Assembly: GCF_019636075.1 (NCBI RefSeq)
Contig: NZ_JAHBYG010000001.1
Span: forward strand, 62,001-126,000
Origin: Ferrovibrio sp.
GTDB taxonomy: Bacteria; Pseudomonadota; Alphaproteobacteria; Ferrovibrionales; Ferrovibrionaceae
Length of the DNA stretch: 64,000 bases
Direction: 5' to 3'
Position numbers and translations under genes: made by a program. Of this stretch, positions 57,123 through 60,778 are shown piece after piece (the stretch's first letter is position 1; every line of letters starts with the position of its first letter). The notes below the pieces were generated by a model. That model was given only the letters and a program-made list of their open reading frames with translations. It was not told the origin of the DNA and did not search any database.

Positions 57123-57220
57123 TTATAATCGACAAGTGATTATGGCCGTCCGCCAGGGATCGGCTAAACTGCTGCTGTGGCCGGTCGGTTCCCGGCTTTG
57201 TTTGGAAAGGTGTGGGCTCC

Positions 57221-59149
<1,929 letters not shown>

Positions 59150-59200: not shown

Positions 59201-59231
59201 AAAAAGCCCGGTGGAAACACCGGGTTTTTTT
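59201..59231. terminator. Intrinsic terminator after ftsH
   Basis: CCCGGTG (59207-59213) pairs with CACCGGG (59218-59224) around a GAAA loop, with TTTTTTT after and AAAAA before. The A-run makes it work in both directions, serving ftsH and the opposing AT-rich gene. Confidence 0.93.
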
Positions 59232-59288
59232 AATCTTTTGATACTAATCGCTTCGGTTCTCGAGCTTTAAAAACTGAGCCTTATTTTT

Positions 59289-60149
59289 TTAGTTTGGGTC
59301 GCCATACAATTGCGCCATGTCTGAAGTGGTGAAATGCCATTTCTCATGGATGGCTTTTGCAATTGGATTCTTTTCAATTTCATTTGCTGCTTCTATAAAC
59401 ACTTTTGGAAAAGTCGCGATGAAGTGGGCCATGATTACGCAGCCAATCCCGATGATCGATTTTGTAAGTAATACTTGATCTTCAAATGACGAGGATTGCG
59501 CAATCTGTAGTGCGCTACCGTACCCAGAGTGGGAGTATTCGGATAGATATCTGTAGATATGTTTGAAATATTTCTTATGAACTCCTGCGTCTTCAGCTAA
59601 GTCAGCCCATGTTTTTCCAGTTCGCCAACTTCCCTGTAAAATCTTTTTTTGAATATCCGGTTTGAGGCTAACGAAATTCGTATCCTTGGATATATCATTT
59701 CGAAGTTTTTGAACAATTTCTTTCTCTTGTTCTACTATTTTTATATGTGTGGGGTTGGTGGCCGGGAATTTTTGGCGATCAATTAATCCCCCTAATTCCC
59801 ATGTCTTATGGCGAAAGCGAGAGACTGAGGGATGTGAGTTTCCGTATATGTAGCTAAAAATCAAATATGTTTCAAAGGCGGCTCGTGCCAATACTTTGAT
59901 TGATGAATGATCGATAAAAAGAATGGAAAATTTCTTAAAAGAATAAGTCTGGCCATTCGCTAGAGCGGCTATGGCGTAAAGATGCTGAAAAAGCTTTATC
60001 GATAACGCTTGAGCATCGTTTAGCCATTCTGATCCAGTAGGTATTGTTTGCCCTGCCGGCACCTCAATCAAATTAGAGACTAGTTCAAGAAGGGTTGAGT
60101 AATCTCTATCAAACGGCTCTTCAAGCTTAATGGGGGGTGACCATTTCAT
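59289..60149 (-). CDS. AT-rich protein of unknown function, probably acquired
   Basis: A 286-residue protein coded by visibly AT-rich DNA (about 40% GC by eye) between high-GC neighbours, with rare A/T-ending codons. It is helical and soluble, with VLARAAFETYLIFSYIYGN, KHIYRYLSEYSHSGYGSALQI and a hydrophobic helix SIIGIGCVIMAHFIATF near the C terminus. The Arg-x3-Glu helix and SEYSH pattern resemble the DUF5677 group, but I am not certain. Its ATG overlaps the TGA of the LysE gene (ATGA), so it is read from that transcript. No mobility gene is adjacent. The function is unknown. Confidence 0.8.
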   Translation of the reverse strand: MKWSPPIKLEEPFDRDYSTLLELVSNLIEVPAGQTIPTGSEWLNDAQALSIKLFQHLYAIAALANGQTYSFKKFSILFIDHSSIKVLARAAFETYLIFSYIYGNSHPSVSRFRHKTWELGGLIDRQKFPATNPTHIKIVEQEKEIVQKLRNDISKDTNFVSLKPDIQKKILQGSWRTGKTWADLAEDAGVHKKYFKHIYRYLSEYSHSGYGSALQIAQSSSFEDQVLLTKSIIGIGCVIMAHFIATFPKVFIEAANEIEKNPIAKAIHEKWHFTTSDMAQLYGDPN

Positions 60150-60778
60150 CTCTCCGCCACCGCCAGCTTAACGCCCATCGCCACGAAGGCGGCGGCGAAG
60201 CTGCGGCGCAGCCAGAGCAGGATGGCGGGGCGGCTGAGCACATGGCTGCGCAGCCTTGCCGCGAATAAACCATACAGCACGAAAATGCCGAAAGTGAGCG
60301 CCATGAATGTCGCGCTGAGCAGCAGCATCTGCGCGAGCGCGCTGCCATGCATATCCGGCCTGTCGTGCCGTATGAATTGCGGCAGGAAGGCGAAGAAGAA
60401 GATCGTCAGTTTGGGATTGAGCAGGTTGATCAGAACGGCCTCGATGATGATGCGCAGCGCGGGCGCGGCATCGGCCTGCTGGTTTATCGCGTCCAGCGAA
60501 AGTCTGCTGCGGTCCCGCCACATCGCCCAGGCCATCCAGAGCAGATAGGCCGCGCCGGCATATTTCACCATCTCGAAGGCCAGGGCGCTGGCATGCAGCA
60601 GGGCGGCCAGGCCGGTGATGGCGGCCAGCACATGCGGCACGATCCCCAGCGTGCAGCCGAAAGCGGCCACGATGCCGGCCTTGCCGCCGCGCGAAAGGCC
60701 GGCGGCCAGCGTGAAGATCACGCCGGGGCCGGGCGTGACGGTGAGGATGATGGCGAGAAGGAGGAAGTCGAGGCTCAT
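60146..60778 (-). CDS. LysE/RhtB-family amino-acid exporter
   Basis: A 210-residue inner-membrane protein with about six helices. The family opening LLLAIILTVTPGPGVIFTLAAGLSRGGKAG and the VLINLLNPKLTIFFFAFLPQF segment are both clear. Members export amino acids or homoserine lactones. It ends with the start codon of the AT-rich gene inside its stop. It follows a PAS gene on the same strand, 22 bases downstream. Confidence 0.92.
   Translation of the reverse strand: MSLDFLLLAIILTVTPGPGVIFTLAAGLSRGGKAGIVAAFGCTLGIVPHVLAAITGLAALLHASALAFEMVKYAGAAYLLWMAWAMWRDRSRLSLDAINQQADAAPALRIIIEAVLINLLNPKLTIFFFAFLPQFIRHDRPDMHGSALAQMLLLSATFMALTFGIFVLYGLFAARLRSHVLSRPAILLWLRRSFAAAFVAMGVKLAVAER

Follow-up and report, generated by a model that had tools for sequence, protein, structure and literature searches.

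The AT-rich gene at positions 59289-60149 of the window (the whole 64,000-nucleotide stretch of Ferrovibrio sp. DNA that was analysed) is probably a horizontally acquired, single-gene DUF5677 cargo that lies in a turnover hotspot, behind a LysE stop codon, and most likely encodes an anti-phage effector. We infer the defence role from association with defence genes; an RNA or nucleotide chemistry and a phage trigger are guesses. In the proposed mechanism, the gene would have inserted directly behind the stop codon of LysE, in the ftsH-LysE hotspot, and would be produced at a low level from the exporter's transcript through start-stop coupling. The product would be an enzyme made up wholly of helices, in which R89, E93, Y199 and H207 form the active site; in the presence of a phage signal it would act, probably, on an RNA or nucleotide substrate, and phage growth would be stopped. 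Features are listed in table 1.

Table 1. Features of the window locus and of related loci (congeners are other genomes of the genus; L-numbered coordinates refer to extracted loci).
Feature	Position	Strand	Remarks
ftsH	57212..59149	+	second conserved border of the interval
Terminator-like hairpin, bidirectional, 3' of ftsH	59201..59230	.	13 pairs, T-runs on both strands
AT-rich tail, terminator to stop codon of the gene	59232..59288	.	AT-rich
DUF5677 protein gene; candidate single-gene defence effector	59289..60149	-	286 aa, AT-rich (GC 0.40)
Y199-x7-H207 motif, codons 199-207	59529..59555	-	H 37/37, Y 35/37
R89-x3-E93 motif, codons 89-93	59871..59885	-	37/37 aligned DUF5677 proteins, D for E in two
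Start-stop overlap ATGA, DUF5677 gene with LysE gene	60146..60149	-	shared four bases
LysE-type exporter (PF01810)	60146..60778	-	kept in 10/10 genus genomes searched; borders the variable interval on one side
TIR-TPR protein (TIR-NLR-like), congener G006	L038:1476-4031	-	851 aa, GC 0.44; PADLOC TIR-NLR, E 5e-38
Mrr-like nuclease gene, congener G013	L045:1014-2081	+	GC 0.41; Mrr_cat E 4e-4, exactly at cutoff; PDC-M36A E 4e-8
AT-rich protein, P-loop-like GYKGSGKS, congener G005	L037:1626-3071	+	481 aa; no Pfam/PADLOC match
AT-rich protein, CxxC motifs, HNH-nuclease-looking, congener G009	L041:1691-2407	+	238 aa; no Pfam/PADLOC match
AT-rich cassette: DUF5677 relative and DUF6602/NucC-like nuclease	L015:7989-9788		prophage; between tail-completion and baseplate genes

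A probably acquired gene at the LysE stop codon

The open reading frame (ORF) begins with ATG on the minus strand. GC and GC3 content, computed from the ORF, were 0.404 and 0.383, compared with means of 0.630 (s.d. 0.034, minimum 0.557) and 0.709 for the 47 other ORFs of the window, which corresponds to z = -6.7 and -4.5, respectively. The reference ORFs (150 aa or longer) were chosen by a greedy mechanical procedure and include some false frames, the genome being of high GC; the composition gap is far larger than the error from such frames. When the 64 kb were scanned in 500-bp windows, GC fell below 0.52 in the region of this gene only.

The product of the upstream gene was assigned to the LysE family at E = 1e-36. 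A terminator pattern scan by itself returned 3 hits against 2.9 in shuffled sequences (no excess), so support for the strong terminator-like hairpin comes from its long stem and its recurrence, GC-rich hairpins of this kind also being present 3' of ftsH in several congeners. For the same reason the hairpin is read as part of ftsH and not of the insert, and the foreign stretch is therefore taken to extend from about 59232 to 60146, the AT-rich tail probably belonging to the acquired segment. A promoter scan gave nothing above shuffle expectation for the DUF5677 gene; since no promoter of its own stands out, expression through coupling to LysE is our guess.

The gene thus carries the marks of acquisition. 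The initial annotation had described a probably acquired gene of a composition unlike both neighbours, with its ATG set in the stop codon of the LysE gene and located between that gene and a bidirectional terminator. The composition and the placement of the gene are borne out, and acquisition is further supported by the absence of the gene from the congeners and by relatives in other classes, on plasmids and in prophages.

Relatives and genomic surroundings

The window protein was assigned to DUF5677, as had been guessed in the initial annotation, by a match to Pfam PF18928 (E = 2e-10; 41.4 bits against a curated cutoff of 27.1). NCBIfam, PHROGs and PADLOC gave nothing significant; the best hit among the PADLOC 2.0.0 models was Cas10 at chance level (E = 0.016). 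Relatives of 29-47% identity were obtained from a Nitrosomonas MAG, an Arenicellales MAG, Pseudomonas cerasi, Burkholderia arboris, Pantoea and Comamonas plasmids and eight IMG/VR contigs, the nearest of them belonging to beta- and gammaproteobacteria or carried by plasmids and prophages. The eight viral contigs came from profile scans; a viral scan by single sequence returned nothing, and a search of isolated phage genomes gave no match. Chromosomes, plasmids and viral contigs are interleaved in the tree, P. cerasi grouping with the Pantoea plasmid and Burkholderia with a viral contig. The DUF5677 family is present in 25 of 398 sampled genomes of the phylum (about 6%) and the subfamily of the window protein in two of them, one copy being frame-split. 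None of the nine available congeners has the window gene, nor does any of the other 384 genomes in the sample of the class. Since 13 of the 14 relatives are also more AT-rich than their own flanks, foreign composition is a recurrent trait of the gene rather than something special to the window. At G609:C6:147947-148764 (L146 and L147) a close relative is encoded in two frames, apparently as a broken copy.

Both ftsH and LysE were found in 10/10 genomes searched and are neighbours in all nine congeners. The interval between them measures 1.0 kb in the window and 1.8-5.0 kb in the congeners, with differing contents, and in most pairs compared sequence homology breaks off precisely where LysE stops. 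An AT-rich ORF (GC 0.46 or less) is present in the interval of six of the nine. The TIR-TPR gene of G006 starts approximately 30 bp past LysE and the Mrr-like nuclease gene of G013 is also placed approximately 30 bp past it, both on the same strand as LysE. The 481-aa gene of G005, possibly another undescribed defence gene, and the gene for a small cysteine-rich protein in G009 both face LysE. Other AT-rich ORFs are located in the intervals of G010 and G011, that of G011 being trypsin-like with a weak LmuA match. In addition to the TIR-NLR and PDC-M36A models, weaker PADLOC matches were obtained for the cargo of two more congeners. The intervals of G008 and G012 hold ordinary GC-rich genes, and non-defence genes (GST, serine hydrolase, glutamine amidotransferase) are found in some congeners. 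The GST gene that comes after ftsH in some congeners may have been either replaced or relocated, as a 49% identical GST is encoded on another contig of the window's own genome. Neither an integrase nor an attachment repeat was found at the ftsH-LysE site. Comparison of the sequences marks the interval as a chromosomal turnover hotspot whose content changes between species. The isolated, protected spot of the initial annotation is thus not upheld, and the empty site that it proposed to look for between LysE and ftsH was seen in none of the nine congeners, which carry other cargo.

Relatives of the window gene were also found among defence genes. On the plasmid locus L003 the relative is placed between LmuA/LmuB of Lamassu (E = 2e-43 and 1e-87) and PtuA of Septu (E = 4e-112), and at L006 it comes after HerA (E = 3e-168). 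In the L008 prophage the DUF5677 gene abuts a baseplate gene, a context that L010, L012 and L013 resemble by sequence. A two-gene system was rejected, because the neighbours differ in every relative save for one downstream gene common to L012 and L013. This 343-aa AT-rich gene (phrog_17460; L012:3627-4658 and L013:868-1899) directly follows the DUF5677 gene in these related prophages, and may be a partner or a second cargo.

For the neighbour test, the five nearest ORFs at 20 DUF5677 loci from across the phylum were compared with 100 ORFs taken at arbitrary positions in those genomes, using a threshold of E ≤ 1e-20. In all, 82 PADLOC models were hit by the neighbours and 1 by the controls; these are models not assigned to single proteins, members of one system are not independent, and by model names the 82 correspond to at least ten proteins versus one control protein. 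Among them were GajA and GajB of Gabija (twice each), PD-Lambda-4 A and B, PD-Lambda-3B, a type IV restriction enzyme, ThsA, bSEFIR and methyltransferases. Only genomes with long contigs among these supplied controls, which were random chromosomal rather than accessory genes, a lenient choice, so part of the enrichment is attributable to general island clustering. The earlier hunch of a defence function has in this way gained independent evidence of association: the interval cargo, the neighbours of relatives, the count of 82 versus 1 and the link to DitA described next.

Aditi consists of two genes, DitA and DitB. The DitA model (PADLOC PDLC03826) was matched by one of 39 DUF5677 proteins (E = 8e-19), a G409 protein (L056/L143) distant from the window protein; the alignment covers positions 307-476 of the model's 486, in its C-terminal part. 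Aditi is an anti-phage system (PMC10121019, PMC12926258). No match to DitA was obtained for the window protein or elsewhere in its genome, and the DitB arrangement is absent at the window locus, the flanking genes being LysE and ftsH. At L112:6586-7678 (+) a DUF5677 protein matching the C-terminal part of DitA adjoins transposase genes; a separate short ORF 5' of it, with a stop inside, gave a weak match to the N-terminal part, and the two are possibly a split or decayed DitA.

Conserved residues, predicted fold and alternative readings

The alignment takes in widely different subfamilies. R89 and H207 do not vary in it, position 93 is occupied by E or D throughout and Y199 is replaced in two of the 37 proteins; the window copy holds all four signature residues. 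As few polar residues are invariant across 37 such diverse proteins, these four suggest an active site. That the protein is an enzyme is a guess drawn from this conservation, and an RNase-type activity is likewise a guess. The AlphaFold model (pLDDT 88.2, pTM 0.87) is nearly all helical, apparently of one domain, and contains a helix-turn-helix-like pair. Cropping to the Pfam region lowered the pLDDT from 88 to 74, for which reason the helices at the N-terminus are probably part of the fold. Searches of solved and viral structures (PDB, BFVD) with the full-length model and the cropped core gave no significant fold match, only generic helical ones, the rhodopsin-like matches (Z of about 7) being at the level that helical bundles reach by chance. 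Sequence searches among solved structures yielded no match either.

As a single isolated gene with no constant partner, it could instead be a moron, generic mobile cargo that is beneficial in another way (regulatory, toxin-antitoxin-like or stress-related), co-travelling with defence genes without fighting phages; many non-defence genes are borne by prophages and islands. The helix-turn-helix-like pair of the model and a weak AraC-HTH-like match at residues 175-200 (E = 0.01) would suit a regulator, but the stretch overlaps the family-wide Y-x7-H motif, and an HTH regulator was rejected on these grounds. The strong enrichment of defence models around DUF5677 genes and the DitA link also argue against such cargo, which we consider a doubtful, if serious, alternative.

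A special case of the anti-phage effector, and not exclusive of it, would be a non-canonical HEPN-type RNase, acting as an abortive infection toxin and extending the HEPN superfamily. The all-helical predicted fold and the invariant H in a loop after a helix are consistent with this, and HEPN effectors are known in prophage defence, with Tha as an example (PMC11087260). The window copy also happens to read R-x6-H (R200...H207): H207 is invariant, but R200 is N, G, S or H in close relatives. As the HEPN motif R-x4-6-H is thus not conserved, membership is not claimed. There was also no HEPN structure among the Foldseek or VIA matches shown, an absent match that does not exclude one, and DUF4145, a possible bridge to HEPN, was dropped after hhalign gave no similarity. 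A HEPN-type identity is rated as unlikely, and the window protein may possibly work like a HEPN RNase.

Members of the family do decay, G609 with its relative in two frames being the sampled case, and a non-functional remnant might be suspected here too; the window copy is full-length and open, retains all family-invariant residues and yields a confident model, which makes decay very improbable. That the gene is an ordinary operon partner of LysE, inherited vertically and unusual in composition, as the start-stop overlap on one strand would allow, is scarcely credible and for the genus already refuted, given the absence from every congener and from the rest of the class sample and the nearest relatives in other classes, on mobile elements.

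Comparison with known systems

In the literature searched, DUF5677 is without a described function and receives passing mention in a single paper. Extending the anti-phage reading from the window gene to the family, we propose tentatively that DUF5677 is an undescribed catalytic immunity effector domain, with an R-x3-E/Y-x7-H site and a helical fold unlike solved structures, used stand-alone (carried by prophages, plasmids or hotspots of the chromosome) and serving Aditi as its effector half. Should the members be defence effectors, a family present in about 6% of the sampled genomes of the phylum gains a testable role, with four residues to mutate, and a link is made from DUF5677 to Aditi, for which PMC12926258 lists the mechanism as unknown. 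In addition, new defence genes may be sought in a small hotspot of the chromosome that two housekeeping genes flank.

Compared with PF18928, the window protein scores above the cutoff and keeps the R-x3-E and Y-x7-H signature, but it aligns to profile positions 27-158 only and comes from a divergent, rare subfamily with an N-terminal helical extension. It resembles Tha and other prophage-carried HEPN defences (PMC11087260) in being helical, prophage-borne among its relatives and a proposed phage-triggered effector. It differs from them in that no sequence link is shown and in that the conserved R and conserved H of DUF5677 are on different helices, the canonical R-x4-6-H being missing. With Aditi, a listed defence system, it shares the DUF5677 domain by way of the L056/L143 protein and the C-terminal part of DitA, whereas the window protein itself has no DitA match, lacks the N-terminal part of DitA and is not flanked by a second gene of the system. 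In P2/P4 elements, small turnover hotspots are loci of approximately 1-5 kb with a conserved gene on either side (Rousset et al. 2022, PMC9122126). In the window, by contrast, ftsH and LysE, which form the borders, are chromosomal, and neither an integrase nor phage genes were seen; the ftsH-LysE locus is like those hotspots in its 1-5 kb size, two conserved borders, high turnover and defence cargo, and several close relatives of the window gene adjoin structural genes in prophages.
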